Source: Deltaproteobacteria bacterium (lineage in GTDB: Bacteria; Myxococcota_A; UBA796; GCA-2862545). From it: 64,000 nt of DNA. Position numbers and translations under genes: made by a program. The stretch is from positions 62,001-126,000 of the forward strand of contig SBGP01000077.1 of the NCBI GenBank assembly GCA_006226595.1, written 5' to 3'. The notes below the pieces were generated by a model. The model was given only the letters and a program-made list of their open reading frames with translations, was not told where the DNA came from and ran no database searches. Positions 10,027-32,046 of the stretch are shown one piece after another (position 1 is the stretch's first letter; each line of letters begins with the position of its first letter).

Positions 10027-10044
10027 TGCCACCTCCGGGACGAG

Positions 10045-11614: not shown

Positions 11615-11874
11615 CCTAGGAGCACCGGGTTGCCAGGCGCGAGAGGGCGTTGCGTGTCGGATTGCTGGTCTAGGCGGACGCAGGAACGCGGGCAGGGGGA
11701 CCACGCGCGCCAGTCGTGGCCTCGAAGCGTTGTATCGCGGCGGTGGCGAGGCCACGCCCGCCCCTCTTGAACTCTCCCACCCGAAGTTCTTCGCGAGGCA
11801 AATCGGACCCAATGAGTCCAGTCCGACGACTCCGCGTCCTCCCAGATGGCAGCCGGACCGGGGTATGGTGCGCC

Positions 11875-13692
11875 ATGCCCGCTCATCCTTCGGCTGACGA
11901 AGCTCCCACTCTTGGCACCCTCGCAGCGCTTGTGGGAGCCCCCGCGGCGTTCGAGGCGGTCCTGAGGCGCATCACCGGCGGCCCCCTGGGCCTCTCGGAC
12001 TGGACGGGGGTCGCGTTCGCCTTCGCCAGCCTGGTCGCGCTGTGCTGGGGGGTACGCCACGCCAAGCACCCAGCAGTCCCGGCCCTGGCGAAGGTCCTGA
12101 TCGTCGCCACCTACGGCGGCGGCATCCTCGTGCCCCTCGGCCTTCAGTTCGACCAGCCCGCGATGCTGATGCTGCCCATGGCCGGCGCGCTCGCCATCGC
12201 CGGGCTCGGCGGTCCGGTTCTCCGCCGAGAACCGCTGCGATGGGGACCCCGAACCGTGCTCGGGTGGACAGTGGGTATCTCGGCCGTCGCATTCCTCCTG
12301 CTCGCGCGCCGCAATGCGCTGGCACCCCCGGTCGAGGTGGCCCTTCCACTTCTCGCGTTCATTGCGCTCGGGCTGCTCCTCGAGCGATGGGCGGGCGCTC
12401 TGGTGCTCGCCGCCCTCGTCCCCGGTCCCTCCGAGCACTGGACCGTCGACGGCCCGGCACCCGCCGCCCCGGACGTGGTGTTGATCAGCATCGACACCCT
12501 GCGGCTGGACGCCGCCCGCAGCATGGCGAGCCTGCAGCGCCTCGCCGACCAGGGGGTGTTCCTCGACGCCCAGGCTCCCTCGCCATGGACGCTTCCCTCG
12601 ATGGTCTCGCTCATGACCGGACTCGAGCCGGCACATCACGCGGCGATCAAGACGCCGATGGGCTTTCCACGCCTCTCCGACGACATCCCCACCCTCGCCG
12701 AGCAACTGAGCGCTGCGGGCTATGACACCGCCGCGACCGCAGAGAACCCGTTCACGGGCCCGCGCTTCGGACTGGAACGCGGCTTCGCGCGCTATCGCCA
12801 CGACGCCGCCAAGCCCTGGGCCCTGCCGCAGGTACCGTTCACGACGACGCCGCGAACCACAGGCACCATGCTCCTTGCCGCAGCGGGACTCATCACCCCG
12901 GACGACGGCATCGACCTCAGGCTGCGTGACGCGCGTGAGCTGATGGCCTCTCGTCGCGAGCGGCCTCTGTTCTTGTGGGTGCACATTCTCGAGCCGCACC
13001 TGCCGTACACCCACGCCCTGGACCTGGAGGGTGTCCGGCTGGCCGAGCGGCTCGCCCTCCTCACCGCGAATCGACTCCACGCCGCGCTCCCAGACGAGGC
13101 CACCCTCGCGCTCTACCGCAAGGCATACGCCCACGAGGTCGACGTGACCAACGCGGCGCTGGGCACCTGGCTCGACGAGCTTCCCCCCCCGCCCGCCGCG
13201 GGTCGGGTGATCTTCGTGGTCGCCGATCACGGCGAAGCCTTCGGCGAACACGGCGGCTGGGAGCACGGCCACAGCATGTACCAGGAGGTCGTCGCCGTCC
13301 CGATGGTGATCTCGGGGCTCGACGGAGTGGTCCGCCAGGGCCCCGTGGGCCTGATCGACGTGACCCCCACGGTGCTCGCCCTCGCCGGTGTCCCTTCGGG
13401 CGACCTCGATGGACAGGACCTGCGAAGCCACCAGAGCGTGCCGTACACGTCCAGCAACCCGCTGTACGGCGACCTCACGCTGCGCGCAGTGCGCATGGAC
13501 GACGCCAAGCTCATCGCCCAGTCTGATCGCCGCATCTCCTTCGACCTCGCCACAGACCCGGACGAACTGTCCCCAGGCTCGCAGGTGGCGCTGGAGCCGT
13601 TCCTGCCCCCTGCCGTCCTCCACGCCAGCGAGTCGATCGAGCTCGACGACACCACCCGCGAGCAACTCCGGGGGCTCGGCTACCTCGAGTAG
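11875..13692 (+). CDS. Sulfatase-like membrane enzyme with Thr at the nucleophile position
   Basis: A 605-residue protein. Residues ~40-185 contain five or six membrane helices; the rest is an extracytoplasmic alkaline-phosphatase/sulfatase domain. Metal ligands are visible in VVLISIDTLRLD (Asp207) and VADHGEAFGEHGG. The position of the formylglycine-forming Cys (C-x-P-x-R) reads T-L-P-S-M, putting Thr239 at the nucleophile site. Sulfatases need Cys or Ser there, whereas phosphoethanolamine and phosphoglycerol transferases of the same fold (EptA, LtaS) use Thr, so it could be a lipid-head-group transferase or phosphodiesterase instead of a sulfatase. An alternative ATG at 11812 would add 21 residues. 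The gene converges on a hypothetical gene 64 bp downstream. Confidence 0.8.
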   Translation: MPAHPSADEAPTLGTLAALVGAPAAFEAVLRRITGGPLGLSDWTGVAFAFASLVALCWGVRHAKHPAVPALAKVLIVATYGGGILVPLGLQFDQPAMLMLPMAGALAIAGLGGPVLRREPLRWGPRTVLGWTVGISAVAFLLLARRNALAPPVEVALPLLAFIALGLLLERWAGALVLAALVPGPSEHWTVDGPAPAAPDVVLISIDTLRLDAARSMASLQRLADQGVFLDAQAPSPWTLPSMVSLMTGLEPAHHAAIKTPMGFPRLSDDIPTLAEQLSAAGYDTAATAENPFTGPRFGLERGFARYRHDAAKPWALPQVPFTTTPRTTGTMLLAAAGLITPDDGIDLRLRDARELMASRRERPLFLWVHILEPHLPYTHALDLEGVRLAERLALLTANRLHAALPDEATLALYRKAYAHEVDVTNAALGTWLDELPPPPAAGRVIFVVADHGEAFGEHGGWEHGHSMYQEVVAVPMVISGLDGVVRQGPVGLIDVTPTVLALAGVPSGDLDGQDLRSHQSVPYTSSNPLYGDLTLRAVRMDDAKLIAQSDRRISFDLATDPDELSPGSQVALEPFLPPAVLHASESIELDDTTREQLRGLGYLE

Positions 13693-15326: not shown

Positions 15327-15342
15327 TGGCACGCGCCCTGCA
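15327..15342 (+). promoter_or_regulatory. Sigma-54-type -24/-12 promoter
   Basis: TGGCACGCGCCCTGCA matches the RpoN consensus TGGCAC-R-N4-TTGC-W with one mismatch, GG and GC being separated by the required 10 nt. The predicted start point (~15353) gives a ~12-nt leader that just contains the SD GGGAGGT. The core is nearly identical to that at 26963. Confidence 0.6.
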
Positions 15343-15364: not shown

Positions 15365-15961
15365 ATGCTCGCACTCCTGCTTGCCCTGTCGACCGCGACT
15401 TCCGCTCCCGCCGAGTCCGGCATCGAGCTGTCCGCCGGCTACAGCCGGACCTACGAGGCCGGTGCCCACGACCCCGGCTACCGCTTCGACTTCGACGCGT
15501 ACTACCCGGGAAGCCAGTGGATGGCGGGATACCGCCGACTCGGCTGGATGGGCGAGTCCCGCTTCGCCATCGGCTACACCCTCCGCTACGGCATCGTGAC
15601 CTCGGGCGAGCGGGTTCCGCCCCCGCCCTCCCACAGCGGTGGCCTCGGTCTGGGCGGCAGCTTCCCGAATCCGATGGCCCTTCCCTGGGGTCAGGCGAGC
15701 TTCGTGACCCTGTACTGCCCCCCTGTCGCCAAGCCCAGGCCCTACGCGGGCATGGAGCTCGGGGTCGACGTCGTGATCATCCTTCCGACACCCCTGCACG
15801 CGAACCTGATCGCCGGTGCGCGCTTGCCCACCCGCGGCGGAGGCTCGGTGTGGCTCGGCGCGTGGACAGGCGCCTTCCTCACACCGCTCGGCCCGTCGCT
15901 ACTCTTCCGCGGCGGGCTCTCCTTCTCGGTGATGTTCGATCTCCATCCGGAGGATGGGTGA
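15365..15961 (+). CDS. Secreted/outer-membrane beta-barrel-like protein
   Basis: A 198-residue protein with a short signal peptide (MLALLLALSTATSAPA). The mature chain is rich in alternating Gly/aromatic residues and Tyr, in short strands typical of a small 8-stranded outer-membrane barrel, and ends in hydrophobic strands followed by an acidic tail. No family assigned. The start at 15365 follows GGGAGGT and fits the sigma-54-type promoter at 15327-15342; the frame continues upstream only into unlikely sequence. Confidence 0.65.
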   Translation: MLALLLALSTATSAPAESGIELSAGYSRTYEAGAHDPGYRFDFDAYYPGSQWMAGYRRLGWMGESRFAIGYTLRYGIVTSGERVPPPPSHSGGLGLGGSFPNPMALPWGQASFVTLYCPPVAKPRPYAGMELGVDVVIILPTPLHANLIAGARLPTRGGGSVWLGAWTGAFLTPLGPSLLFRGGLSFSVMFDLHPEDG

Positions 15962-16972: not shown

Positions 16973-17041
16973 ATGCACTCGCCGCCGCCCGCCCATGCCC
17001 CAGCACCGCCGGCCCACATCTCCCTGAGGGCCGCGCGATGA
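16973..17041 (+). CDS. 22-codon upstream ORF coupled to ppk2
   Basis: A Pro/Ala/His-rich peptide (begins MHSPPPAHAPAP) with its own SD (GTGGAGG), a TAGGCT -10 box at the standard distance, and a stop codon that overlaps the ppk2 start as ATGA. The geometry is that of translational coupling or of a regulatory leader peptide. It could also be a non-functional product of a long ppk2 leader; no conservation data are available. Confidence 0.45.
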   Translation: MHSPPPAHAPAPPAHISLRAAR

Positions 17042-17790
17042 CCGACCGCTCTCAGCTCCCGATGGAGGCCTCGCTCACCGAGGCACAGCTCTTCGAGCTC
17101 GACGCCCTGCAGACCGAGCTCGTCCAGCTGCAGCACGCGATGTCCGAGGACGGACGCCGTCTCGTCATCCTGTTCGAAGGTCGCGACACCGCCGGCAAGG
17201 GCGGCGCCATCCTGCGGTTCATGCGCTACCTCAACCCCCGCCAGGCCCGCACCGTCGCGCTCTCCAAGCCCAGCGACCGCGAGCGCGGGGAGTGGTACTT
17301 CCAGCGCTACATCCGCCACCTGCCCACCTCCGGAGAGATGGTGCTCTTCGACCGGAGCTGGTACAACCGCGCGGTGGTCGAGCCGGGTCTCGGGTTCTGC
17401 ACCGACGCGGAGTACGAGCAGTTCCTCGACCAGGTGCCCGTGTTCGAGGGCATGCTCGCCGCCGAGGGCATCACGCTCATCAAGCTCTGGTTCTCGATCT
17501 CGAAGCAGACCCAGCAGGAGCGGCTCGACGCGCGGCGCTTCGACCCGCGAAAGCAGTGGAAGCTGTCGCCGGTCGACCAGATGGCGCAGGACCACTGGGA
17601 GCGGTTCACGGAGCTGAAAGAGGCGATGTACCAGCGCACGAGCACGCCCGACGCGCCATGGTTCATCGTGAAGGGCGAGGACAAGTACCTCGCGCGCACC
17701 GAGGCGATGCGGCACGTGCTGCACGTCATGGGCTGCGAGTCCACTCACCGCCTGACCCCGGACCCCGCGGTGCTCGCGCGCTATGCGTAG
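17038..17790 (+). CDS. ppk2: Polyphosphate kinase 2 (PPK2)
   Basis: A 250-residue PPK2, the full size of a one-domain (class I) enzyme. The Walker A loop is GRDTAGKGG (about residues 45-53), the Walker B/catalytic Asp lies in VLFDRSWYNRA, and the lid segment RFDPRKQWKLSPVDQMA is present. PPK2 enzymes transfer phosphate between polyphosphate and nucleotides, usually making GTP or ATP at the expense of polyphosphate. ATG overlaps the stop of a 22-codon upstream ORF (ATGA); GAGGG 8 nt upstream could also serve as its SD. It is the only gene in the unit besides the mini-ORF before a Nudix gene 115 bp downstream. Confidence 0.95.
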   Translation: MTDRSQLPMEASLTEAQLFELDALQTELVQLQHAMSEDGRRLVILFEGRDTAGKGGAILRFMRYLNPRQARTVALSKPSDRERGEWYFQRYIRHLPTSGEMVLFDRSWYNRAVVEPGLGFCTDAEYEQFLDQVPVFEGMLAAEGITLIKLWFSISKQTQQERLDARRFDPRKQWKLSPVDQMAQDHWERFTELKEAMYQRTSTPDAPWFIVKGEDKYLARTEAMRHVLHVMGCESTHRLTPDPAVLARYA

Positions 17791-17904: not shown

Positions 17905-18318
17905 ATGCAGTTCGGCGAGCCACCCGAGGGCCCGTTTCGCGAGCGCCCCGGCGCGTATGCCGTCATCCTCGACCACACGGGGAGAGTCGCGGTGGCGTGC
18001 GTCGGAGAGGCCGCGCACCTGCCCGGCGGCGGCATCGAGGAGGGCGAGACCCCGCTCGACGCCCTGCACCGCGAGGTCTTCGAGGAGACCGGTCTCGGGG
18101 TCTCCATCGTCCAGCCCCTCGGCGTGGCCCGGCAGTACGTACGCTTTCGCGGCGAGGACTGGAACAAGATCGGCCACTTCTACGCGTGCCGACCCGTGCG
18201 CTTCGGCGAGCCCGTCGAGATCGACCACGAGCTCGCGTGGTGGAGGCCGGCCCAGGCGCTGAGCGGGCTCCACCACCCGTACTACACCTGGGCCCTGCTA
18301 CGGGCCCTGCGCAGCTAG
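17905..18318 (+). CDS. Nudix hydrolase
   Basis: A 137-residue single-domain Nudix protein. The Nudix box GGGIEEGETPLDALHREVFEETG (written here in parts: G-x5-E-x7-REVFEETG) is complete, so it should hydrolyse a nucleoside diphosphate linked to another moiety in a Mg2+-dependent way; the substrate is not predictable. The start is fixed by AGGAGG 6 nt before ATG and a TAGCCT box further upstream, rather than by the longer frame that begins at 17830. Its stop overlaps the convergent hemerythrin-like gene by 4 bp. Confidence 0.85.
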   Translation: MQFGEPPEGPFRERPGAYAVILDHTGRVAVACVGEAAHLPGGGIEEGETPLDALHREVFEETGLGVSIVQPLGVARQYVRFRGEDWNKIGHFYACRPVRFGEPVEIDHELAWWRPAQALSGLHHPYYTWALLRALRS

Positions 18319-18965
18319 GCGAGGGCCTCGACGCGCTCACAGAGCATGGACCACTGCGCGGGCACGAGCCCATCGGCGAGCCAGGTCCGCGTGCGCGCGA
18401 ACACCTCCGGCGGCTGCACCCGCGAGAGCATGGTGACGTAGGCGACCGCCTCGTCATCGGGGTTGCGGGCGACGATCCACGGGATGAGCACCGGAAACTG
18501 CTCCTTCGGGATCACCGCGAGGATGGCCTGGATGATGCCCCCCTGCTCCGGTGGACTGAACAGCTCCTCGGTCTTCGGCCACAGCTCGTTCTCTTCGCGA
18601 GACATGTGGGCATCGCTGTGGTCGCGCAGGTGCGCGAGCTCGGCCTGGATCGCGGCGAGCTCGTCGGCCGTGCCACACGACGCGATGGCCTCGGCGAGCT
18701 TGCCGAGAACGACCTTCTCGTCCGCGTGGTCCTGGGAGTAGGCCGCGCACAGCGGTCCCGCGCGCTCGTCGAGGGTCCCGAAGTAGCCCTCGTCCTCCCC
18801 AATGGCGTGCCCGATGAGGGCGTCGGCGAGCAGGCCGAAGTCGTCCCCGAGGGCGGCGACCTCGGCCGGGTCCTCGATGGACGCGGCCCGATCGGCGAGC
18901 GAAGCCGTCTCGTTGCGAATGGCGGTGTGTACGAAGCGAAGTCCTCGGATCGGTCCTGGCGGCAT
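18315..18965 (-). CDS. Hemerythrin-like HHE-domain protein
   Basis: A 216-residue all-helical protein with two His-rich stretches arranged as in hemerythrin-like cation-binding proteins: a first His at residue 13, then HAIGEDEGYF, DHADE, and HLRDHSDAHMSREENELWP near residue 115. These could bind a di-iron centre used for O2/NO sensing or iron storage. There is no signal peptide, so it is cytoplasmic. GGAGGG precedes the ATG, and TAGGGT (18983-18988, minus) lies 17 nt upstream. It overlaps the Nudix stop by 4 bp. Confidence 0.75.
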   Translation of the reverse strand: MPPGPIRGLRFVHTAIRNETASLADRAASIEDPAEVAALGDDFGLLADALIGHAIGEDEGYFGTLDERAGPLCAAYSQDHADEKVVLGKLAEAIASCGTADELAAIQAELAHLRDHSDAHMSREENELWPKTEELFSPPEQGGIIQAILAVIPKEQFPVLIPWIVARNPDDEAVAYVTMLSRVQPPEVFARTRTWLADGLVPAQWSMLCERVEALA

Positions 18966-19106: not shown

Positions 19107-21557
19107 CTACGACCGGGTCGGAAGCACGGCCTTCAGGACCTCCAGGGAGAGCGCGCTGACCACGAACACGCCGCCGATCGCCTGCCAGTCCGCCACGGTG
19201 AGCGGGACCAGGTGGAACGCGCCCGCCAGCGGTGTGTACAGCAACACCAGGTGCACGACCGCGACGCCGGCGATCGCCCGCAGCAGCCACGGGTTGCCTC
19301 GCAGCCCCACCCGCCACAGGGGAAGCTCCGAGCGCGCGGACATGGCGAGGAACAGCTCGATGGCGATGGCCAGCGTGATGGTCGACGAGCGGATCTCGTC
19401 GATCGGCTCACCGGCCTGGTAGCGCCACAGGAAGAAGCCCATGATCGACGCGAAGCCGAGCAGGGCCGCGCCCACGAGCTGAGCCATGCTGCCCGCGAGC
19501 AGGTGCTGGTGCGCCGGCCGCGGAGGCCGCTGCATGACCCCGGGTACCGCAGGCTCGTTGGCCAGCGCCAGCGCCGGCGGCCCGTCGGTCATCAGGTTGA
19601 GCCACAGGATGTGGATGGGCAGCAGCGGCAGCGGCAGGTTGAAGGCAACGGCGGTGAGCACCACAAGCAGTTCGTCGAAGTTCGCGCGGAGCAGGAAGAG
19701 CACGAAGCGTCGGATGTTGTCGTGGATACGGCGCCCCTCGCGCACGGCGTGGACGATGGTCGCGAAGTGGTCGTCGGCGAGCACGACGGCCGCAGCCTCG
19801 CGCGCGACGTCGGTGCCCCGCAGCCCCATGGCCACCCCCACGTGGGCCCGCTTGAGCGCGGGCGCATCGTTCACGCCGTCGCCGGACATCGCCACCACCT
19901 CGCCGTTCGCGAGCAGCGCCTCGCACAGGGCGACCTTGTGCTGGGGTGAGACGCGCGCGTAGATCGCCGTGTCTCGGACGTCCTCGCGGAGCGCCTGCTC
20001 GTCGAGTTCGTCGAGCTCGCGGCCGGTGCGCACCCGTCCCTCGATGCCGACCTGGGCGCCGATGGCCGCCGCGGTGAGCGGGTCGTCGCCGGTGATCATC
20101 ACCGTGCGAATGCCCGCCTGACGGGCCTCGGCCACCGCCTCGCGCACGCCGCCACGCGGCGGGTCGGTCATGCCGACCCAGCCCACCACGCGCAGGCCGC
20201 CGTCCCCTGCTTCCGCCGCCGCGAGCACGCGCAAGCCCCGGCGTCCCGCTGCCTCGGTCTCCTCGGCGAGCCAGGCGGGAACCGCATCGGCCAGTGCGGC
20301 GAGCTTCTCGGGGCTGCCCTTGAGGAACACGCGACCGCCATGGCGGGTGCGCATGTACTTGGCCTCGGAGGTGAACGGGACCTCCTCCTCGTCGATGGGA
20401 AGCCGCTGCGCACCGATCGCCTCTGCCCACGCGAGCAGCGCGAGCTCGGTGGGGTCTCCCGCATCGGGAAGGTCGCCGTGGCTGCACGAGGCGAACACCG
20501 TGGCAAGGGCGACCTCGTCGAGGCCGTCGCCCCGGTGCTCGACCACGGTCATGCGGTTCTCGGTGATGGTGCCGGTCTTGTCGGAGCACACCACCGTCAC
20601 CGCCCCGAGGGTCTCGAGAGCGTCGAGGCGTCGCACCAGCGCGTTCTGGCGGGCCATGCGCCGCACGCCGAGCGCGAAGCACACGGTGACCACCGCCGGC
20701 AGCCCCTCAGGCACCGCACTCACCGCGAGGCTCGTCGCGATGAGCAGCACCTCGAGCACGTGCAGCTCGCGGAGCAGCCCGACGAGCGCGACCAGGCCAC
20801 AGAGCACGAGCGCGACGACGCCGAGGTTGCGACCCAGCTGCTGCAGGCGCTGCTGAAGCGGCGTCATCGGGATGTGGGTCTCCGCGACCAGCGTGGCGAT
20901 CTGCCCGAGCTGTGTGTGCACGCCCGTCGCCGAGACCACCGCCTCCCCCGCCCCGCGCGTGACCAGCGTGCCCGCGAACACCTCGCTGTTCCGCTCGGCC
21001 AGCGGCGCCCCGGCCTCGGCCGGGTCGAGCGACTTGACCACCGGCTCCGCCTCGCCGGTCAGCGTGGACTCGTCCACCGTGAGGTGGCTGACGTGCACGA
21101 GGCGCGCATCCGCCGACAAGCGGTCCCCCGCCTCGAGCAACAGCCGGTCGCCGGGCACGAGCTCGGCCGCGTCGACGAGGACCACGGTTCCGTCGCGTCG
21201 CACCCGGGCCCGAGGTGCGTGCAGGCGGTCGAGCTCCGCAATGGCGCGCTCGGCCTGATACTCCTGAGCGATGCCCAGCGTGGCGTTGAGCACCAGGATC
21301 ACGCCGATGACGAACGCGTCGAGAAAGCGACCGAGCGTGAGGGGTCCACCCTCGAGGAATGGGGTCGCGATGCTGATCGCGAGCGCCGCGAGCAGGATGT
21401 ACACGAGCGCATCCTGCAGCTGACGGCGGACCAGCGCGAACAGCGAGCGCGGCGCCTCGGGCAGGCGGTTGGGCCCCCACTCCGCCAGCGCCTGCTGGAC
21501 CTCTTCCGCGCTCAGGCCCGGCGCACCGTTGCCACGGGGCTCGAGAGGCTCCGTCAT
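19107..21557 (-). CDS. P-type cation-transporting ATPase (type II)
   Basis: An 816-residue P2-type ATPase. The N-terminal cation-ATPase domain precedes two helices (about 48-95), the actuator loop with LTGE (167-169 TGE), the ion-path motif PEGLP (283-287), the phosphorylation site DKTGT (Asp326), the nucleotide-domain TGD, and the hinge SGDGVNDAPALK. About eight helices follow or precede, and the protein ends about 80 residues earlier than typical SERCA/PMCA-like members. It should export Ca2+, or possibly Na+/H+, at the inner membrane using ATP. It starts 6 bp after the ppsA stop, so both belong to one operon and share the sigma-54-type promoter at 23993. Confidence 0.9.
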   Translation of the reverse strand: MTEPLEPRGNGAPGLSAEEVQQALAEWGPNRLPEAPRSLFALVRRQLQDALVYILLAALAISIATPFLEGGPLTLGRFLDAFVIGVILVLNATLGIAQEYQAERAIAELDRLHAPRARVRRDGTVVLVDAAELVPGDRLLLEAGDRLSADARLVHVSHLTVDESTLTGEAEPVVKSLDPAEAGAPLAERNSEVFAGTLVTRGAGEAVVSATGVHTQLGQIATLVAETHIPMTPLQQRLQQLGRNLGVVALVLCGLVALVGLLRELHVLEVLLIATSLAVSAVPEGLPAVVTVCFALGVRRMARQNALVRRLDALETLGAVTVVCSDKTGTITENRMTVVEHRGDGLDEVALATVFASCSHGDLPDAGDPTELALLAWAEAIGAQRLPIDEEEVPFTSEAKYMRTRHGGRVFLKGSPEKLAALADAVPAWLAEETEAAGRRGLRVLAAAEAGDGGLRVVGWVGMTDPPRGGVREAVAEARQAGIRTVMITGDDPLTAAAIGAQVGIEGRVRTGRELDELDEQALREDVRDTAIYARVSPQHKVALCEALLANGEVVAMSGDGVNDAPALKRAHVGVAMGLRGTDVAREAAAVVLADDHFATIVHAVREGRRIHDNIRRFVLFLLRANFDELLVVLTAVAFNLPLPLLPIHILWLNLMTDGPPALALANEPAVPGVMQRPPRPAHQHLLAGSMAQLVGAALLGFASIMGFFLWRYQAGEPIDEIRSSTITLAIAIELFLAMSARSELPLWRVGLRGNPWLLRAIAGVAVVHLVLLYTPLAGAFHLVPLTVADWQAIGGVFVVSALSLEVLKAVLPTRS

Positions 21558-21563: not shown

Positions 21564-23969
21564 TCACCTCGTCTCGCTCGCCTCGGCACGCGCGATCACC
21601 TGGATAGCCCGGGCGACCGCATCTGGTGTGAGGCTGATCGAGCGAATACCATGGGCGACAAGAAACGCGGCGAACTCGGGGTGATCCGAGGGTGCCTGCC
21701 CGCAGATGCCCACCGGCGTGCTCGTGGCGTGCGCGCGCTCGAGCAACATCGCAATCGCGCGGCGCAGCGCGGGCCCCTCGTCGTCGAACATCACCGAGAC
21801 CTCGGACGAGTCGCGGTCGACGCCGTACACGAGCTGGGTCAGGTCGTTCGAGCCGATGGAGAAGCCATCGAAGCGCGCTGCGAACTCCTCGGCCAGCAGG
21901 ACATTCGCAGGGATCTCCGCCATGACCCACACCCGCGGTCCGCCCTCGGCGCCCCGCACGATGCCGCCCTCGGCCATCACCGCGAGCACGGCATCGCCCT
22001 CCTCGGGGGTGCGACAGAACGGCACCATCACCTCGAGGTTGGTGAGTCCCATGACCTCGCGCACGCGGCGCACCGCGGCCACCTCCATCAAGAAGGCTGG
22101 CTTGAACCTCGGATCCCGGTAGCGGGACGCGCCGCGCCAGCCGATCATCGGGTTGGCCTCGACAGGCTCGAACAGCGCCCCCCCGAGCAGGCCGGCGTAC
22201 TCGTTGGTCTTGAAGTCCGAGAAGCGCACGATCACCGGGCGCGGCCAGAACGCCGAGGTCAAGGTCGCGATGCCCTCGGCGAGTCGGCTCGTGTACCACT
22301 CCACCGGGTCGGTGCCGCCGGTGCGCTCCGCAAGGGCCGCGCGGGTGTCGTCGTCGAGCCGCTCGGGCTGCAGGATGGCCGTGGGGTGCACGCCAATCCA
22401 CGACGAGAGGATGAACTCCATGCGCGCCAGGCCGACGCCATCCACGGGCAGCTGGGCGAGGTCGAAGGCCGTGTCCGGGTCCCCCGCGTTGACCATGACC
22501 TTCGTGCGCAGGTCCGCGGGTCGCTCGAGAGGGATCTCCTCGATGTCGATGTCGGCCAATCCCTCATACACGCGACCGGTCGAGCCCTCGGCGCAGCTCA
22601 CCGTGGCGTGCGGGGTCCCGGCGAGGGCCTGCATGGCGCCGGCCGCGCCGACGAGCGCCGGCAGGCCGTGCTCGCGGGCGACGATGGCGGCGTGCGAGGT
22701 TCGGCCGCCGCGCTCGGTGACGATGGCCGCGCAGCGCTTCATGACCGGCTCCCAGTCCGGGTCGGTGCTCTCGGCGACGAGGACGTCACCGTCCTCGACC
22801 GACGCCATCGCGCTGGGATCGGCGACGACGCGGACCGCGCCGGCCGCGGCCGCCGAGCCCACGGCGAGCCCTTCCACGAGCGAAGGTCCGGCCGGGCGGA
22901 CCCGGTACCGGCGCACGAACGCATCCGTGCTCTGCGCGTGCACGGTCTCGGGACGGGCCTGGAGGATGAACAACTCGCCGGTGACGCCGTCCCGCGCCCA
23001 CTCGATGTCCATCGGCGTAGGCGTGCCGCGCTGCGTCGAGAACCAGTCCTCGATGCGCATGGCCCAGTCCGCGAGGGTGAGCACCTCGGCGTCGGTCACG
23101 GTCCACTGCGCCTGTCTCTCGGCCTCGACGGCCTGCTCGAGCGTGCGTCCATCCGGGTCGAGGACCATCTCCACGCGCTTGGTGCCCAGCTGCCGGCGCA
23201 CGATCGACGCGAAGCCCTGCCTTGCCGTGGGCTTGTGCACGTGGAACGCATCCGGCATCACCCGTCCCTGGACCACGGTCTCGCCGAGCCCCCACGCCGA
23301 GGTGAGGTACACGAAGTCGCGGTGCCCGGAGTCGGGGTCGAGGGTGAACAGGACTCCCGAAGCCCCCGTGTCCGCGTGGACGAGGCGCTGCACGCCGACG
23401 GACAGGGCCACCTGCAGGTGCTCGAAGCCATTGTGGGTGCGGTAGCTGATCGCACGGGCGGTGAACAGGCTCGCGAAGCAGTCGCGGGTCCGCTCGACCA
23501 CGTCATCCGCACCCACGACGTGCAGGTAGGTCTCCTGCTGCCCGGCAAAGCTCGCCGTCGGCAGGTCCTCGGCGGTCGCCGACGAGCGCACGGCCGTGGC
23601 GACCTCGTCGACGCCAGACCGCCGGCAGAGCTCGGCATAGGCCTCGCGAATGGCGCGCTCGAGCTCGGGAGGGAATGCACCCGCGCGGATGCGCTCGCGA
23701 ATCGCGCGCGCCCGCTGCTCGAGCGCCGTCACGTCGCGCACGTCGAGGTCGGCGAGCTCACGGGCAATCGGCCCCTCGAGCTCGTTGTGCGCGAGGAAGG
23801 ACCGATAGGCCCCCGCCGTCACCGCGAAGCCGTCGGGCACGCGCACCCCGGTGGGCACGAGCTGCGAGATCAACTCGCCCAGCGCTGCGTTCTTGCCGCC
23901 GACCTGAGCGAGGTCCTTCGAGCGCAGCTGGTCGAACCACAGAATCGACGCGTCCGGTGTCACAGGCAT
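21564..23969 (-). CDS. ppsA: Phosphoenolpyruvate synthase
   Basis: An 801-residue PEP synthase (pyruvate, water dikinase), full length for the family. The N-terminal ATP-grasp part (about 1-340) begins with the SKDLAQVGGKNAALGE motif; the swivelling domain holds the phospho-histidine signature GGRTSHAAIVAREHG (His426); the C-terminal PEP/pyruvate barrel ends with the active-site CGQAPSDHPEFA segment. It converts pyruvate and ATP to PEP, AMP and phosphate, supporting gluconeogenesis. GGGAGG precedes the ATG. A perfect -24/-12 promoter lies just upstream, implying activation by sigma-54. The P-type ATPase gene follows 6 bp downstream. Confidence 0.95.
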   Translation of the reverse strand: MPVTPDASILWFDQLRSKDLAQVGGKNAALGELISQLVPTGVRVPDGFAVTAGAYRSFLAHNELEGPIARELADLDVRDVTALEQRARAIRERIRAGAFPPELERAIREAYAELCRRSGVDEVATAVRSSATAEDLPTASFAGQQETYLHVVGADDVVERTRDCFASLFTARAISYRTHNGFEHLQVALSVGVQRLVHADTGASGVLFTLDPDSGHRDFVYLTSAWGLGETVVQGRVMPDAFHVHKPTARQGFASIVRRQLGTKRVEMVLDPDGRTLEQAVEAERQAQWTVTDAEVLTLADWAMRIEDWFSTQRGTPTPMDIEWARDGVTGELFILQARPETVHAQSTDAFVRRYRVRPAGPSLVEGLAVGSAAAAGAVRVVADPSAMASVEDGDVLVAESTDPDWEPVMKRCAAIVTERGGRTSHAAIVAREHGLPALVGAAGAMQALAGTPHATVSCAEGSTGRVYEGLADIDIEEIPLERPADLRTKVMVNAGDPDTAFDLAQLPVDGVGLARMEFILSSWIGVHPTAILQPERLDDDTRAALAERTGGTDPVEWYTSRLAEGIATLTSAFWPRPVIVRFSDFKTNEYAGLLGGALFEPVEANPMIGWRGASRYRDPRFKPAFLMEVAAVRRVREVMGLTNLEVMVPFCRTPEEGDAVLAVMAEGGIVRGAEGGPRVWVMAEIPANVLLAEEFAARFDGFSIGSNDLTQLVYGVDRDSSEVSVMFDDEGPALRRAIAMLLERAHATSTPVGICGQAPSDHPEFAAFLVAHGIRSISLTPDAVARAIQVIARAEASETR

Positions 23970-23992: not shown

Positions 23993-24008
23993 AGCAAGCG
24001 TCGTGCCA
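23993..24008 (-). promoter_or_regulatory. Sigma-54-type promoter of ppsA (perfect consensus)
   Basis: On the minus strand this reads TGGCACGACGCTTGCT, an exact match to TGGCAC-R-N4-TTGC-W. The predicted start (~23982) leaves a ~13-nt leader holding the GGGAGG SD of ppsA. The site lies in the 76-bp gap to the divergent flavoprotein gene. Confidence 0.7.
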
Positions 24009-24023
24009 GACTCTCGCCGAGGT

Positions 24024-24029
24024 TAGGCT
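24024..24029 (+). promoter_or_regulatory. Putative -10 box (TAGGCT) of the flavoprotein gene at 24046
   Basis: TAGGCT, 16 nt before the ATG at 24046, followed by the GGAGG SD. Confidence 0.45.
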
Positions 24030-24045
24030 GAGGCTCGGAGGTCGC

Positions 24046-25272
24046 ATGCGCGTCGCCATCATCGGCGGAGGAAGCGCTGGGCTGGTGACGGCGTACCTGC
24101 TCGACCGGACACACGACGTCACCGTGCTCGAGAAGCAGCCCATCCTCGGCGGGCACGTGCGCACGCTCAACGGAAACGTGCTCACACCCCTCCCGTCGCA
24201 CCTGCGCCTGGATGCCGGTGTCATCGAGTTCGAGACCCGGAACTTTCCGCAGCTGATGCGGCTGTTCGACGAGCTGGGCTGCGAGACCCGCCCCGTGCGT
24301 GGCACCACGACCTTCTACAGCGCGGACGGGCACCACCACCTCTCTCCGGGCTCGATGCAGCGGGCGCAACACCCCTGGCCCCAGCGCATCCGCGAGCTGG
24401 TCGATCTCGTCGGCATGCGTGTTCAGGGTATGCGCTTCGAGCAGCGCACCGACGTCGCCGAGTCCCTGGCCGGCCGCCCTCTCGGAGACTTCCTCACCGA
24501 CGCCCCCACGGATCGCTGGCTGGCCCTGCTCACGACCTATGCCTACTCGATCCCCTACGAGCGGGTGCGCCAGGTCCCCGCGGCCCTCGCCGTCCCGATG
24601 CTCCACGCCTTCCTCCACGCCGAGAGCTGGGTGAGCCTCGTCGGCGGCGCGTGGTGCTACCTCGACCGAATCCTCGCCGGTCTCCGGGGCCCGGTGCACA
24701 CCGATGCGCACCTGACCTCGGTCGCCCGCGACGAGCGCGGCGTGACCCTGACCTTTGCGGGTGGCGAGCGCGCGCGCTTCGACAAGGTCGTGTTCGCGTG
24801 CCCTCCGGATCAGACCCTCGCGCTGCTCGCCGACCCCAGCGAAGCGGAGGTCCGGCGCTTCGGCGCGTGGCGCGCCAACCACGTCCACACGCTGGTCCAC
24901 ACCGATCGCCAGCCGTACGACCGCCGCAAGCTGGACGTGGCCACCGAGTTCGACGTGTTCGAGCTCGGCAGCGGACGCGGCGGCTACAACGCGTACCTCA
25001 ACGAGCTGTGCGGCCTTCCCGCCGACGGCCCCCAATACGGGCTCGCCTTTGGCATGGACGAGGAGATCCGGCCAGAGACCGTGCTCCATCGCCAGCCGCA
25101 CCACACCCCCGACTACACCGTCGAGGCCTACCGCTGGTGCTCCGAGATCCGGGCGACCAACGGGGAGCGGCACACCCTGCACGCGGGCGCCTGGCTAGGC
25201 AACGGGCTCCAGGAGGGCGCGATCTGCTCGGCGCTGGCCGTCTCGGACCGGCTCGGCGGCCACCGCCTGTGA
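24046..25272 (+). CDS. FAD-dependent amine oxidase-like oxidoreductase
   Basis: A 408-residue flavoprotein. The N-terminus has the dinucleotide-binding fold VAIIGGGSAGLVTAYLL with the acidic end of strand 2 in VTVLEKQPILGGHVRT, typical of the amine oxidase/protoporphyrinogen oxidase/phytoene desaturase superfamily. The C-terminal GAWLGNGLQEGAICSA segment closes the FAD site. The related NAD(P)-binding amine oxidase genes next to fatty-acid cyclopropanation clusters look similar, but no such partner is present. Substrate unknown. GGAGG is 5 nt from the ATG. It ends 1 bp before the stop of the convergent flavoprotein gene. Confidence 0.8.
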   Translation: MRVAIIGGGSAGLVTAYLLDRTHDVTVLEKQPILGGHVRTLNGNVLTPLPSHLRLDAGVIEFETRNFPQLMRLFDELGCETRPVRGTTTFYSADGHHHLSPGSMQRAQHPWPQRIRELVDLVGMRVQGMRFEQRTDVAESLAGRPLGDFLTDAPTDRWLALLTTYAYSIPYERVRQVPAALAVPMLHAFLHAESWVSLVGGAWCYLDRILAGLRGPVHTDAHLTSVARDERGVTLTFAGGERARFDKVVFACPPDQTLALLADPSEAEVRRFGAWRANHVHTLVHTDRQPYDRRKLDVATEFDVFELGSGRGGYNAYLNELCGLPADGPQYGLAFGMDEEIRPETVLHRQPHHTPDYTVEAYRWCSEIRATNGERHTLHAGAWLGNGLQEGAICSALAVSDRLGGHRL

Positions 25273-25273
25273 C

Positions 25274-26836
25274 TCATTCGTAGAGGAAGCGGTCTCCCGT
25301 CAGCTCCTCGTACAGGTTGGCGCCCGTCCAGAAGGTCCCCGCGAAGCCCGCGTAGCCCGACGAGGCGTTGCAGAACGAGAGTCCGGGGATCGACGACTCC
25401 CATGTCAGTCGCCCGGGACCCATGTTCTCGGGGGTCATGTTCGAGCCGTAGGAGTTGCCGCGCGGGCTGTTGACGTAGCGCTCGTTGGTGGTCGGGCTCC
25501 CGAGCATCTTGAACACGAGGTGCTCGGAGAAACCGGGCACGTAGTCGCGCTCGACGATGGCCACCATGCGCTCGAAGACCTCCTTCTTCTTCTGCGTGTA
25601 CGCCTTGGGCTTCGCAAAGCGCAGGTGCCGGAAGCGGTCGTAGTCGGCCACGGTGAGCAGCTCGACGATCTGGCGGTCGGGCGCGCAGTCCGTGCGCTCT
25701 TCGGTGAGCAGCGTGGGCACCGTCATCGCAAAGCTCGGCCGGCTGTAGTCGCCGAACTCGACCATCTCGCGAAACGCGACGTTGAGGTCGGACTGCTCGG
25801 TGTGGAACAGGTTCGAGCGGCCGAAGCCGTGCGCGCGCAGGTCGAGCCCCTCGACGACGCAGTAGGCCATGAAGTTCGACACGGAGTACTCGTAGTCGAG
25901 CTGCTTGCGGACCTTTCGACTGAACCGCTCGAGGCCGATGAGCTCGGCCGCGCGGCGCGGGTCCATGTTGCACACGACGTGCGCGCCGCCGAAGCGCGCC
26001 ACCTCGCCGGTGGCCACGCCGTCGGTGTCCACCGCCTCGGCCATCGCGCCGCACACGCGGTCACCGTCGAGCACGAAGGAGGTCACCCGCTGCTGGAGCA
26101 GGACCTCGCCACCATGGGCGCGGATCGTGGCCACCAGGGACTCGATGACGTGCTCGAAGTGACGGGTCGGGTAGTACGCCCCGCGCATGTACCCGGTGAA
26201 CAGCATCACCCAGGCGAAGAACGAGAGCTGGGCCGGCGGAAGCAGGAAGTCCGGCCACTGCAGCGCGAGCAGGGTCTGCGCGGGATGCGGCAGGCCGAAG
26301 CGGTCGAAGACGTCCTGCAGGGTCGCCTGGCGGTAGCGGATCAGCCGGCGGTAGCGGTGGGCCTTGGGCAGCATGCGCAGGCCGCGCTTGGAGGCGGGCG
26401 GCAGCGCCGCGATCTCGTCGGCCACCGCCATGACCTCGTCGACAAAGGCGGCGCAGGGGCCGGCGTGCTCCGGAAACAGCGCGGCAAGGCGCGCGGCGAG
26501 CACTGCGGGGTCCGACGGTATGTCGAGGGCGTAGCCGGGCATGCGCATGCGGTCGAAGCCGTCGGGGTCGAAGCGCTCGAAGGTGACCTCGTCCTCGAGC
26601 CCGAGCTTGCGCAGCACCCGCCCAACCGGCTCGTCCGGACCGCAGTTCCACACGTAGTGGAACTGGGCGTTGAAGCTCACGCGGTCCGCGCCCTCGCCGT
26701 AGTGGAACGTGTGCCCATAGCCGCCGGGCGCGTCGTGGGCCTCGAGCACGCGCACCACGCGCCCCGACCTCGCCATGAGTGCTCCGAATGCGAGGGCCGA
26801 CAGGCCGCTGCCGACGATGAGGTAGTCCGCTTGCAC
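25274..26836 (-). CDS. Phytoene-desaturase-like FAD oxidoreductase
   Basis: A 520-residue flavoprotein of the CrtI/carotenoid isomerase/retinol saturase type. It begins [18 protein letters not shown] (GxGxxA/G FAD site) followed by [18 protein letters not shown], and ends with [20 protein letters not shown], the C-terminal FAD contact. It should act on a polyene or other hydrophobic alkene, but no carotenoid synthesis gene is nearby. The start is a GTG at 26836, chosen because GGAGGGAG lies 6 nt upstream and no better codon follows. TAGGGT (26857-26862, minus) sits 20 nt upstream. Confidence 0.8.
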
Positions 26837-26856
26837 GATCGCTCCCTCCGAGGCTG

Positions 26857-26862
26857 ACCCTA
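26857..26862 (-). promoter_or_regulatory. Putative -10 box (TAGGGT) of the phytoene-desaturase-like gene
   Basis: TAGGGT on the minus strand, 20 nt before the GTG start at 26836; recurrent TAnnnT box. Confidence 0.4.
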
Positions 26863-26962
26863 CCCCGACGCACCGGCCGTGGGACCGGGGCGATTTCGCA
26901 CGAATGGCCGAGGCATTTCGCCCACCCCACACGCCGACCGCCGGGTCCATCGCGCTTCGCGC

Positions 26963-26978
26963 TGGCACGCGCCGTGCA
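26963..26978 (+). promoter_or_regulatory. Sigma-54-type promoter of the acyl-CoA synthetase/2-oxoacid dehydrogenase operon
   Basis: TGGCACGCGCCGTGCA fits TGGCAC-R-N4-TTGC-W with one mismatch (G for the first T of TTGC) and correct GG-GC spacing. The predicted start (~26989) precedes the GGGAGG SD and the ATG at 27000. It differs by one base from the site at 15327. Confidence 0.6.
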
Positions 26979-26999: not shown

Positions 27000-28688
27000 A
27001 TGGACTGGGATCGGCTCCGCGAAGACTTCGACTGGGAGCGCGCGCGCGGCGACGAGCTGCACCCCTTCCCCGACGGGGGCATCAACCTCTTTCACGAGGC
27101 GGTCGGCCACCACGTCGCCGAGGGCCGCGGCGCCCAGGTCGCGATGCGCTGGCTCGGCAAGGACGGAAGCCGCCAGGACCTGACCTACAGCGACCTCGAC
27201 GACCTCGCCGGGCGGTTTGCGGGTGTGCTCGAGTCGCTCGGCACCTCGCGTGGCGACCGCGTGTTCACTCTGCTGGGACGCGTACCCGAGCTGTACGTGG
27301 CCGCCCTCGGCACCCTGCGCGCCGGGCGGGTGTTCTGCCCGCTGTTCTCGGCTTTCGGCCCCGAGCCCATTGCCAGCCGCGTCGGACCGGGCGACGGCCG
27401 CGTGCTCGTCACCACGCCGCGGCTCTACCAGCGCAAGGTCGCCCCCATCCGCGACCAGCTGCCCCAGCTCGAGCACGTGCTGCTCGTCGGCGATGACACG
27501 CTGGATGGCTGCGAGGCCCTGGCGCCTCGCCTCGCCGCGGCCACGCCGCTCCCCACCGCGTCCATGGACCCCGAAGACATGGCGCTGCTGCACTTCACCT
27601 CGGGAACCACCGGCAAGCCCAAGGGCGCGGTGCACGTGCACGCGGCGGTCCTCGCCCACAAGCTCACCGGACGCTGGGTCTTCGACCTTCACCCCGGCGA
27701 CGTGTACTGGTGTACCGCCGACCCCGGCTGGGTCACGGGCACGAGCTACGGCATCGTCGCCCCCCTGGCCCTCGGCGCCACGCTCGTCATCGACGAGGCC
27801 GAGTTCGACGGGCCACGCTGGTACGGCATCCTCGAGCGCGAGAAGGTCGCGGTCTGGTACACGGCCCCCACCGCCATCCGCATGCTCATGAAGATGGGAC
27901 TCGAGGTCGCCCGGGACTTCGACCTGTCCTCGGTCCGGCACGCGCTGTCGGTCGGGGAGCCCCTCGCGCCGGACGGCGTCGCCTTTGGCGAGGTGCTGCT
28001 CGGCACCCCGTTCCACGACACCTGGTGGCAGTCCGAGACCGGCGCAATCATGATCGCGAACCTGCCAGGCCAGCCGGTTCGCCCGGGGTCCATGGGCAAG
28101 CCGGTGCCGGGCATCACCGCCGCCATCGTCGAGCACGACGGCGACGACCGGCTGGAGGTGCTCGCCGACGATGCCGAGGGCGAGCTCGCGCTGCGACCCG
28201 GGTGGCCGTCGATGTTCCGCACCTACCTGCACAACGACGAGCGCTACCAGCGCTCGTTCAAGGACGGCTGGTACCTCTCGGGCGACCTCGCGAAGCGCGA
28301 CGCCGACGGGTACTACTGGTTCGTCGGGCGCGCGGACGACGTGTTCAAGAGCGCGGGACACCTCATCGGCCCCTTCGAGGTCGAGAGCGCCCTCGTCGAG
28401 CACCCGGACATCGCCGAGGCCGCGGTCATCGGCAAGCCCGACCCGGTCGCCGGCGCCATCGTCAAGGCCTTCCTCGTGGTGCGGCCTGGCGTGACGGTCG
28501 ACGCAGCCCTCGAGCGCAGCGTGCGCGGCCACGCCCGCAAGCGGCTCGGCCCCGCGGTGGCCCCGCGCGAGGTCACCTTCGTCGACAGCCTCCCCCACAC
28601 CCGAAGCGGCAAGGTCATGCGGCGCCTGCTCAAGGCTCGCGAGCTCGGCCTGCCCGAGGGCGACACGTCCACCCTGGAGAACCCATGA
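27000..28688 (+). CDS. AMP-forming acyl-CoA synthetase (acetyl-CoA synthetase-like)
   Basis: A 562-residue ANL-superfamily ligase. Motifs in order: [13 protein letters not shown] (A3 phosphate loop, ~200), the WWQSETG segment (A5), [24 protein letters not shown] (A7/A8; given in parts [10 protein letters not shown] and WFVGRADDV) and the C-terminal [10 protein letters not shown] with the catalytic Lys. Overall layout and the ending [14 protein letters not shown] recall Bacillus-type AcsA. It activates a short carboxylic acid, probably acetate or propionate, to its CoA thioester. The start is fixed by GGGAGG. The stop overlaps the E1 alpha start by 4 bp (ATGA), making this the first gene of a five-gene operon. 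Confidence 0.85.
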
Positions 28689-29662
28689 CCGCCCTGCCCG
28701 GAAGAGGCCACGCGCTGCACCTGCTCACGCAGATGGTGCGCATCCGTCGGTTCGAGGAACGCTGCGCCGAGCTGTACTCCGCCGGCAAGATCCGCGGGTT
28801 CCTGCACCTGTACATCGGCGAGGAGGCCGTCGCGACCGGCGCTCTACGTGCGCTCGGCCCCGACGATGCCCTGCTGTGCACCTACCGCGAGCACGGGCAC
28901 GCGCTCGTGCGCGGGGTGCCGATGAACAAGGTGATGGCCGAGATGTTCGGCAAGCAGGAAGGCTGCTCGCGCGGACGCGGCGGCTCGATGCACCTGTTCG
29001 ACGCCGAGCACCGCCTGTACGGCGGAAACGCCATCGTCGCCGGACACCTGCCCCTGGCCGTCGGCATGGGCCTCGGCGACCAGATGGCCGGACGACAGCG
29101 CGTCACCGCCTGCTTCTTCGGCGAGGGAGCCATCGCGGAGGGCGAGTTCCACGAGTCCATGAACCTGGCGGCGCTGTGGAAGCTGCCCGTGCTCTTCGCC
29201 TGCGAGAACAACGGCTATGCGATGGGCACCGCCCTGGCGCGCAGCGAGTCCCAGACCGCGCTGACGGTGAAGGCGGCGAGCTACGGCATGCCGGCGGTGA
29301 GCGTGGACGGCATGGATGTGGTCGCCGTCGAGACCGAGACCCGCGCCATCGTCGATGCCATCCGAGCTGGCGGCGGCCCCGCGTTCATCGAGTACAAGAC
29401 CTACCGCTTCCGCGCGCACTCGATGTTCGACGCCGAGCTGTACCGGGACAAGGCCGAGGTCGACGAGCACCGCAAGCGCGACCCCATCCCGTCCTTCCTG
29501 CGCCGGATGATCGCGGCGAACACGCTCACCGAGGAGGACCTCGCCCACATCGAGGCCAAGGTGGCCGAAGAGCTGTCCGAGGCCGTGGCCTTCGCCGAGG
29601 CCGGGACCTGGGAGCCCATCGAGGAGCTGACCCGAGACGTGTACACGGAGGTGGGCGCATGA
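28685..29662 (+). CDS. 2-oxoacid (pyruvate/acetoin) dehydrogenase E1 component, alpha subunit
   Basis: A 325-residue thiamine-diphosphate-dependent E1 alpha. The TPP-binding region runs from [14 protein letters not shown] to ENNGYAMGT, with the usual GDG reading GEG, and the phosphorylation-loop region [15 protein letters not shown] and the HGHALVRGV motif are present. With E1 beta it decarboxylates a 2-oxoacid and passes the acyl group to lipoate on E2. Similarity to PdhA/AcoA does not settle whether pyruvate, acetoin or a branched oxoacid is used. It overlaps the ligase gene and the E1 beta gene by ATGA on either side. Confidence 0.9.
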
Positions 29663-30639
29663 GCGAGGTGACCTTCCGCGAGGCCGTACGCATGGCCCTT
29701 CGCGAGTCGATGCACGCGGACGAGCGCGTGTTCCTGATGGGCGAGGACGTCGGCCGCTACGGCGGCTCCTATGCGTGCAGCATGGGCCTGCTCGAAGAGT
29801 TCGGCGAGGCGCGCATCCGCGACACGCCGCTCTCCGAGTCGGGCTTCGTCGGCGCCGGCATCGGTGCAGCGCTGGTCGGCATGAAGCCCATCGTCGAGGT
29901 GATGACCGTCAACTTCAGCCTGCTCGCCCTCGACCAGATCATCAACAACGCCGCCACCCTGCGGCACATGTCCGGCGGCCAGGTGAACGTGCCGGTGGTC
30001 ATCCGCATGTCCACCGGGGCGGGCAAGCAGCTCGCGGCCCAGCACAGCCACAGCTGGGAGGCCTTCTACACCCACGTGCCCGGGCTCAAGGTGCTGAGTC
30101 CGGCGACTGTGGTAGATGCGCGCGGCATGCTGCTCGCCGCACTCGACGACCCCGATCCGGTCGTGATCTTCGAGCACTCCGGCCTGTACAACATGAAGGG
30201 CGAGATGCCGGAGCCCCCGCCCGCCGTCGACCTGACCCATGCGCGGGTCGCGCGGGAAGGCACGGACGTGACCCTGATCACCCACGGTGGCTGCCTTCGC
30301 CGGACCACAGAGGCCGCGGCAGCCCTCGCCGAGCGCGGCATCTCCGCCGAGGTGCTCGACCTGCGCGTCCTGCGCCCGCTGGACTGGAACACCGTGTTCG
30401 AGAGCGTCGCGAAGACGCACCGCGCCGTCATCGTCGACGAAGGCTGGAAGTCCTGGGGCTTCTCCGCCGAGGTCTCGGCGCGCATCGCCGAGGACGCGTT
30501 CTGGATGCTGGATGCGCCCGTACGGCGGGTCGCGGGGGTCGAGGTCCCGATTCCCTACCCGACGCACCTCGAGCAGGCGTCCATTCCCCAGACGGCACAG
30601 GTCATCGCCGCGGCCCTCGAGGTGGTGGGCCATGGGTGA
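29659..30639 (+). CDS. 2-oxoacid dehydrogenase E1 component, beta subunit
   Basis: A 326-residue transketolase-like E1 beta. It begins with [14 protein letters not shown] and [10 protein letters not shown], the conserved start of PdhB/AcoB proteins, followed by the pyrimidine-binding segment [18 protein letters not shown], where the catalytic Glu activates TPP. The C-terminal transketolase domain carries [16 protein letters not shown]. It forms the alpha2beta2 E1 with the preceding gene, to which it is joined by an ATGA overlap, and overlaps the E2 gene by 8 bp. Confidence 0.9.
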
Positions 30640-31810
30640 CTTCGTCATGCCGAGCCTCGGCGCCGACATGGAGCGAGGCATCCTCAACGAGTGGCTCGTG
30701 AAGCCCGGCGATGCCGTGGCCAAGGGCGACATCATCGCGGTGGTCGAGACCGACAAGGGCGCCATCGAGGTCGAGGTGTGGTCGGCGGGCGTCATCGAGG
30801 AGCTGTGCGTCGACGAAGGCACGGACACGCCCGTGGGGACCGTGCTCGCGCGCATCCGCGAGACCGAAAACCCGGCGTCCGAGCCGTCGGCGGCCGCGAC
30901 CGCCACGCCCTCTCCGCCTCCCGAGCCAGTAGCCACCACACCGGCACCGCCCGCGCCCGCCCCATCCGCGCCGGCCGAGGCGAGAGGACGGGTGATGGCA
31001 AGCCCGTGGGCCCGACACCTGGCCGCCGAGCGCGGCGTGGCGCTCACCGGCGTCACGGGCTCGGGTCCGCTGGGCGCCGTGCTCGGTCGGGACGTGCCCG
31101 CGGCTGCCGCGAAGACCGCGCACCCGAAGCCCGACAAGGTCGATCAGCTCGCCGCCATGCGCCGTGCCGTCGCCAAGGCGATGGCTCGCTCGAAGCGGGA
31201 GATCCCCCACTACTACCTGGGCACCGACGTCGACGTCACCGGGGCCCTCGCCTGGCTCGCCCGGCGCAACGCGTCAGTGCCGCCCCCGGAGCGGCTGCTG
31301 CCGGCCGTGATCTGGCTCAAGGCGGTAGCGGCCGCGATCCGCAAGGTGCCCCAGGTCAACGGCTTCTGGCAGGACGATGCGCTGCGCCTCTCCGAGCCCA
31401 TCCACCTCGGCTTCGCGGTGTCTCTGCGCGGGGGCGGACTCGTCGCCCCCGCCCTCCACGACGTGGACCAGCGCACGCCCGTGGAGCTGATGCGCGCCAT
31501 GACGGACCTCGTCACCCGCGCACGCCGCGGTCGACTGCGCGGCGCCGAGATGACCGATGCGACCCTGACCGTCACCTCGATGGGCGAGCGCGGCGTCGAG
31601 CGCGTCGACGGCGTCATCTACCCGCCCCAGGTCGCGATCGTCGGGCTCGGCAAGGTGGTCGAGCGCCCGTGGGTCGTCGACGGCGAGGTCGCGGTGCGGA
31701 AGGTCATGCACGTCTCGCTCGCCGGCGACCATCGCGCCCACGATGGCCACACCGGTGGCCTGTTTCTCAATGCCCTCGCCGATGCCCTCTCGGCCCCGGA
31801 GGCCCTGTGA
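30632..31810 (+). CDS. Dihydrolipoamide acyltransferase (E2)
   Basis: A 392-residue E2 with one lipoyl domain (Lys42 in [13 protein letters not shown]), a Pro/Ala-rich hinge (about 83-118), a peripheral-subunit-binding domain ([13 protein letters not shown] ... [11 protein letters not shown]) and a catalytic domain ending in the acyltransferase motif DHRAHDG (His-x3-Asp). It takes the acyl group from E1 and hands it to CoA. The domain layout is minimal but complete. No dihydrolipoamide dehydrogenase (E3) is encoded in the operon, so E3 must come from elsewhere. Confidence 0.9.
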
Positions 31811-32046
31811 CCGAAGCCATCCAGACCACCGTGCTCGACCTGCTCGTCGAGCTCGCCCCCGAGTTCGAAGCCGGGGACATCGATCTCGACGAGGATCTCC
31901 GCGACCAGCTCGACATCGACTCGATGGACATCCACCAGCTCGCGACGCGCCTGTACGAGACCTTCGGCGTGGACGTCCCCGAGAGCGACCGGGCCGAGCT
32001 GACCACAGTGCGCCGGTGCGTCGCCTACATCGCGTCGAACCGCTAG
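31807..32046 (+). CDS. Stand-alone acyl carrier protein
   Basis: A 79-residue acidic helical protein with the phosphopantetheine attachment motif LDIDSMDIHQL (Ser39). Its GTG start overlaps the E2 stop (GTGA), so it is translationally coupled to the dehydrogenase genes. This is not the housekeeping AcpP context (no fab genes). ACP-like proteins following PDH-type operons may accept acyl groups or serve as regulatory partners, but that role is inference. Confidence 0.85.
   Translation: MTEAIQTTVLDLLVELAPEFEAGDIDLDEDLRDQLDIDSMDIHQLATRLYETFGVDVPESDRAELTTVRRCVAYIASNR

Follow-up and report, generated by a model that had tools for sequence, protein, structure and literature searches.

In the 64,000-nucleotide stretch of DNA analysed here (the window), the phosphoenolpyruvate (PEP) synthase gene ppsA and an operon encoding acetate--CoA ligase, pyruvate dehydrogenase (PDH) and an acyl carrier protein (ACP) each lie behind a predicted -24/-12 promoter. 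Motif quality, genome-wide enrichment, the presence of RpoN and enhancer-binding proteins (EBPs), and conservation within the class all lend good support to the proposal of an earlier note on this sequence that both are under sigma-54 control. We consider it somewhat better than an even bet that these boxes are real RpoN promoters, that the acs-PDH operon belongs to a low-oxygen regulon governed by an NtrC-type regulator, and that the ppsA run is likely expressed under the same condition. The note had also envisaged a joint switch of the two operons by one EBP. Sigma-54 boxes are indeed found at both, but a joint switch is unproven: the tandem activator motif occurs at acs promoters of the class and finds no support at the window's ppsA. 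An operon dependent on sigma-54 stays silent until an ATP-driven EBP opens its promoter, an all-or-none system usually linked to nitrogen, motility or surface functions.

The promoters and the genes behind them

All three boxes listed in the earlier note are present. The ppsA promoter (positions 23993–24008, minus strand; TGGCACGACGCTTGCT) matches TGGCACGN4TTGCW without a mismatch and was rightly called perfect. The boxes of the acs-PDH-ACP operon (26963–26978, plus strand; TGGCACGCGCCGTGCA) and of a secreted protein gene (15327–15342, plus strand; TGGCACGCGCCCTGCA) each depart from it at a single position in the TT of TTGC. In the form TGGCACRN4TTGCW, the GG and GC elements are 10 nt apart, with an exact match at ppsA and one mismatch at the other two. 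The start codon follows the end of the box by ~20–23 nt (23 at ppsA, 21 at acs and 22 at the 15327 site), with a GGGAGG Shine-Dalgarno (SD) sequence in between at all three genes. Counted from the -12 C as reference, transcription is predicted to start at ~23982 for ppsA and ~26989 for acs, so the leaders would be 11–13 nt long, in agreement with the ~12 nt given in the earlier note. The third box shares this geometry. The product of the gene behind it (15365–15961, plus strand), the barrel protein of the note, has 198 residues and an apparent signal peptide, and matches nothing in Pfam. A fourth box (43448–43463, minus strand; TGGCATGGAGGATGCA) lies 27 nt from an ATG at 43420, which opens a reading frame (43420–42914, minus strand) of 168 residues, whose product likewise appears to have a signal peptide and lacks Pfam matches.

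The ppsA gene (21564–23969, minus strand) encodes an 801-residue PEP synthase that scores above the cut-offs of both NF005057 (1056 bits) and TIGR01418 (1025 bits). Six nucleotides after it begins the gene of a cation-transporting P-type ATPase (19107–21557, minus strand; Pfam E1-E2_ATPase and Cation_ATPase_N/C), probably co-transcribed with ppsA judging by the spacing of the coordinates; in relatives the ATPase gene does not adjoin ppsA in the same way. The third gene of the run, separated by a 141-nt gap, encodes a hemerythrin-domain protein (18315–18965, minus strand; PF01814, E 4e-8). A PPK2 polyphosphate kinase gene (17038–17790, plus strand) faces this run. Between the ppsA and acs promoters lie two flavin amine-oxidase-type genes (24046–25272, plus strand, and 25274–26836, minus strand), each of which is transcribed divergently from one of the two operons.

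The second operon comprises five genes on the plus strand, whose junctions overlap. The first (27000–28688) encodes an acetate--CoA ligase of the AcsA type (NF003313, 818.8 bits against a cut-off of 729), followed by the pyruvate dehydrogenase E1 alpha (28685–29662; TIGR03182, 446 bits, cut-off 394) and E1 beta subunits (29659–30639; NF006667, 406 bits, cut-off 321). The next gene (30632–31810) encodes a 2-oxoacid dehydrogenase E2 with a lipoyl domain, whose best model, TIGR01349, matches with an E-value of 9e-66 and a score below its cut-off. Its end is overlapped by an acyl carrier protein gene (31807–32046), which matches several ACP models below their cut-offs (best E 4e-11). The gene names in the earlier note are therefore correct but incomplete, since the operon reads acs-E1alpha-E1beta-E2-ACP and ppsA is followed by the P-type ATPase and hemerythrin genes. 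An acetoin dehydrogenase reading of the operon is less likely because E1 alpha and E1 beta score above PDH cut-offs, PDH models being the ones compared. A text search of open-licence papers, a scope that makes the result weak evidence, returned none describing an acs-PDH-ACP operon.

Enrichment and conservation of the boxes

In a GC-rich genome the boxes could in principle have arisen by chance or through codon usage, and two counts lean that way. With up to two mismatches allowed, the window alone contains 4 matches against 8.3 expected, a count that does not rise above shuffled sequences and is uninformative, and the relaxed motif TGGCACRN5TGCW occurs only 66 times in the genome compared with 36 in the reversed control. 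The genome-wide scan proposed in the earlier note as a check on rarity gave 22 occurrences of the strict motif against none in the reversed control. This excess is mostly repeated in 28 relatives and is weak or absent in a few smaller ones. Moreover, 44 of the 66 relaxed sites have an SD-preceded start codon within 12–62 nt, as do 10% of random positions (binomial ~6e-28). The strict count, the start-codon geometry, and the conservation in the class with near-absence in outgroups, described below, render a chance origin of the boxes highly improbable.

Orthologous loci of the class, with ~50–63% protein identity (~50–60% for ppsA), were scored with a weight matrix that is our own approximation of the published consensus. 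A box precedes 7 of 14 ppsA orthologues, the window's own copy excluded, and 7 of 9 orthologues of the acs operon. Against backgrounds of ~2% and ~1% per upstream region, the binomial probabilities are 3e-9 for ppsA and 5e-13 for acs, values that overstate independence as the genomes include close relatives, among them two congeneric pairs. The gene order acs-E1alpha-E1beta-E2-ACP is common in other phyla, where it occurs in most of 80 named loci, largely from Pseudomonadota. However, a box was found at only 1–2 of 79 named outgroup loci and was absent from the remaining 77–78 (Fisher ~6e-9 to 3e-8 for class versus outgroup). Sigma-54 control thus appears to be a property of the lineage rather than of the operon, and suggests that a five-gene operon, common elsewhere without the box, underwent lineage-specific promoter capture.

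The genome encodes one RpoN (PF04552, E 1e-59) and has 24 strong matches to the sigma-54 interaction domain of EBPs (PF00158). None of the EBP genes lies within the window; the nearest on the contig is ~49 kb beyond it. Most of the sigma-54 targets in the genome start like lipoproteins or secreted proteins, as judged by eye and not with a signal-peptide program, and have very short leaders of ~10–30 nt. The gene at 15365 seems, from its sequence, to fit this largest, secreted/lipoprotein group of targets, and the 15327 site consequently adds nothing to the metabolic argument. Sigma-54 boxes also precede cytosolic genes, among them (named by sequence reading except where Pfam is cited) those for HemN, two UspA proteins, a CBS-domain protein, a persulfide dioxygenase-like protein and SulP.

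Several other arrangements were observed in this genome. An RtcB-like gene with a sigma-54 box adjoins a divergent EBP gene (L058/L046, G000:C8 ~43500–44700; sequence reading); this resembles the known rtcBA-RtcR pair and makes a useful internal positive control. The SulP transporter and persulfide-dioxygenase-like genes (L255, G000:C80:40000–58000) have a sigma-54 box each, with a short EBP that lacks a receiver domain encoded a few kb away, and form a possible sulfide regulon. At a further locus (L200, G000:C51 ~104390), the gene of a sigma-70-family factor stands behind a sigma-54 box, which suggests a sigma cascade.

Candidate activator sites and regulator

A palindrome, TGTGnG-N6-CnCACA, was first spotted by eye upstream of the CBS and Usp boxes and of some acs promoters. 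On its own, with one mismatch allowed, it occurs at 9 places in the genome compared with 4 in the control, and only those at the CBS and Usp genes adjoin sigma-54 boxes; for this reason, the combination of motif and sigma-54 box was searched for in 71 genomes of the class instead. At each of two spacings, 6 composite matches were found against 0 in the reversed controls. The genes behind convincing matches encode a CBS-domain protein, an acyl-CoA synthetase, UspA (in three genomes), an NtrC-type EBP and a CcoN-like protein, the last, a cbb3 oxidase component, being named from the gene start by sequence reading, not Pfam, and belonging to a relative rather than to the window's genome. Five of the 12 matches have, on our reading, no clear gene behind them (L250, L251, L260, L263 and L264). 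A de novo motif search of mixed acs, ppsA and Usp/CBS upstream regions yielded nothing above control.

Tandem pairs of the motif, 21–24 bp apart, were detected at 6 of 8 acs promoters of the class with a matrix trained without acs and ppsA sequences. The combined p is ~1e-10 against unselected genome pieces, and a fairer control, the other sigma-54 promoters of the genome, gives a Fisher value of 4e-5; these p-values are optimistic because the motif had first been noticed by eye in some of the tested promoters. The window's own candidate pair (CCGGGGCGATTTCGCACG / CGAGGCATTTCGCCCACC, 24 bp apart; 26885–26926, plus strand) is located 36 nt upstream of the -24 box. It is degenerate, scoring p 0.005–0.009 against the unselected genome; since comparable scores are reached by 4 of 62 other sigma-54 promoters, its resemblance to the class enhancer is no more than suggestive. 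At the window's ppsA promoter the class enhancer finds no support (p 0.08–0.17), and the activator pairs of the ppsA promoters as a group do not differ from the internal control (p 0.23); two ppsA orthologues, L113 and L109, do carry plausible pairs.

The EBP behind a composite match (G039) has its best counterpart in the window's genome at L036/L254, 8781–10145, with 62% identity. The protein encoded there consists of a receiver domain, a Sigma54_activat AAA+ domain with the GAFTDA loop and a Fis-type helix-turn-helix (HTH_8), that is, an NtrC-like response regulator as in an NmpR-type regulon. Directly downstream (10400–12018), a sigma-54 box, CGGCACGACCGTTGCT, and a tandem pair of palindromes spaced 20 bp apart precede genes for a TauE/SafE-like protein (by sequence reading) and a hemerythrin. 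No promoter of this EBP gene itself was identified in the window's genome. On the basis of its sequence and surroundings, the EBP at 8781–10145, with its adjoining hemerythrin gene, is the best candidate regulator.

By their sequences, genes that combine the TGTGnG-N6-CnCACA motif with a sigma-54 box constitute a probable low-oxygen regulon across the class, and acs-PDH probably belongs to it. An oxygen-linked activator is likely for this operon, and the data point to oxygen limitation, rather than a gluconeogenic signal, as the best-supported signal. A single EBP that responds to a gluconeogenic or acetate signal and, independently of oxygen, controls ppsA and acs-PDH jointly would account for the conserved boxes at both operons in the class and for the enzymology, since pyruvate and acetyl-CoA are the metabolites that connect PEP synthase, PDH and acetate--CoA ligase. 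We regard it as rather improbable, however: no activator motif common to both promoter sets stands out, several genomes of the class carry one gene set without the other, and the activator motif of the acs promoters goes with cbb3, Usp and CBS genes. A second alternative places the operons in separate sigma-54 regulons, acs-PDH in the low-oxygen one and ppsA-ATPase-hemerythrin under another of the ~24 EBPs. Although the number of EBPs in the genome and the presence of the motif at acs but not at the window's ppsA speak for such a division, it seems unlikely to us, given the plausible pairs at the L113 and L109 orthologues and the hemerythrin gene behind ppsA, of the same family as the gene that adjoins the candidate low-oxygen EBP.

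In the favoured explanation, the boxes are very likely real -24/-12 promoters read by RNA polymerase with RpoN, and each operon would remain silent until its EBP opens the promoter. The acs-PDH-ACP operon would most likely be activated from tandem TGTGnG-N6-CnCACA sites by an NtrC-type response regulator, the assignment of this copy being inferred, within a low-oxygen regulon that would also include the cbb3 oxidase, UspA, CBS-domain proteins and the regulator's own gene. The ppsA-ATPase-hemerythrin run would likely be turned on under the same low-energy condition, through one of the genome's EBPs. Oxygen shortage would then induce high-affinity respiration and, along with it, the activation of acetate, the oxidation of pyruvate and the synthesis of PEP. 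We offer as a tentative extension, possible yet doubtful, that central carbon metabolism itself has come under a low-oxygen regulator of the sigma-54 type throughout the class, such that the PDH-ACP-acetate--CoA ligase operon and the ppsA-ATPase-hemerythrin run are silent in air and opened as oxygen falls. If so, acetate activation, pyruvate dehydrogenase and PEP synthase would be under sigma-54 along with cbb3 oxidase and universal stress proteins, and oxygen supply would gate the handling of pyruvate and acetate throughout this little-studied bacterial class. The enhancer motif and the candidate regulator described here are both concrete enough to be tested.

Comparison with known regulons

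The acetoin (aco) operons depend on sigma-54 and AcoR, have a sigma-54 promoter ahead of E1alpha-E1beta-E2 genes, and in some species adjoin an acetyl-CoA synthetase gene. The operon described here is similar in both the promoter and the neighbouring synthetase gene. It differs in that its E1 alpha exceeds the PDH (TIGR03182) cut-off, it ends in an acyl carrier protein, and no EBP gene lies in the window. AcoR is also covered in a paper that assigns sigma-54 a controlling role over the bacterial exterior (PMC3162934). In the present genome, the lipoprotein- or secreted-like starts of most other sigma-54 targets agree with that role, whereas ppsA and acs-PDH encode cytosolic enzymes.

Neither PEP synthase nor acetyl-CoA synthetase nor pyruvate dehydrogenase is mentioned in the main text of a 2025 survey of sigma-54 regulons (PMC12316311), weak evidence in that open-licence literature was covered. 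Pyruvate metabolism is under sigma-54 in Desulfovibrio vulgaris as well, which has pyruvate and lactate regulons, but there the targets are pyruvate formate-lyase operons with their own EBPs, and PEP synthase is unmentioned in the paper (PMC4641369). In a microoxia comparison of Bradyrhizobium, PEP synthase appears alongside Usp, CBS, HemN and cbb3 proteins, under other regulators (PMC6515984).

The HemN, UspA, CBS and other genes among the sigma-54 targets recall the set of NmpR of Myxococcus xanthus, a hypoxia-responsive sigma-54 EBP with CBS, Usp, HemN-hemerythrin and cbb3 genes under its control (PMC11841059). The NmpRSTU oxygen-utilization regulon also counts a P-type ATPase, the cbb3 oxidase and the regulator itself among its targets, and its enhancer consists of paired palindromic GCGCA-N5-TGCGC sites (PMC11841059). 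That motif is not above background upstream of the sigma-54 promoters analysed here, so the proposed regulon would work like NmpR and is not a demonstrated member. Within the target set, CBS, Usp, EBP and cbb3 genes share the TGTGnG-N6-CnCACA enhancer across the class, the cbb3 gene coming from a relative; the HemN gene has a sigma-54 box, and the activator site was not found there. The two systems resemble each other in an NtrC-like sigma-54 EBP, a candidate here, in paired palindromic enhancer sites and, as far as the sequences across the class suggest, in CBS, Usp, cbb3 and regulator targets. They differ in the enhancer sequence, TGTGnG-N6-CnCACA here and GCGCA-N5-TGCGC there, and in that the targets described for M. 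xanthus include neither ppsA nor an acs-PDH-ACP operon (PMC11841059).
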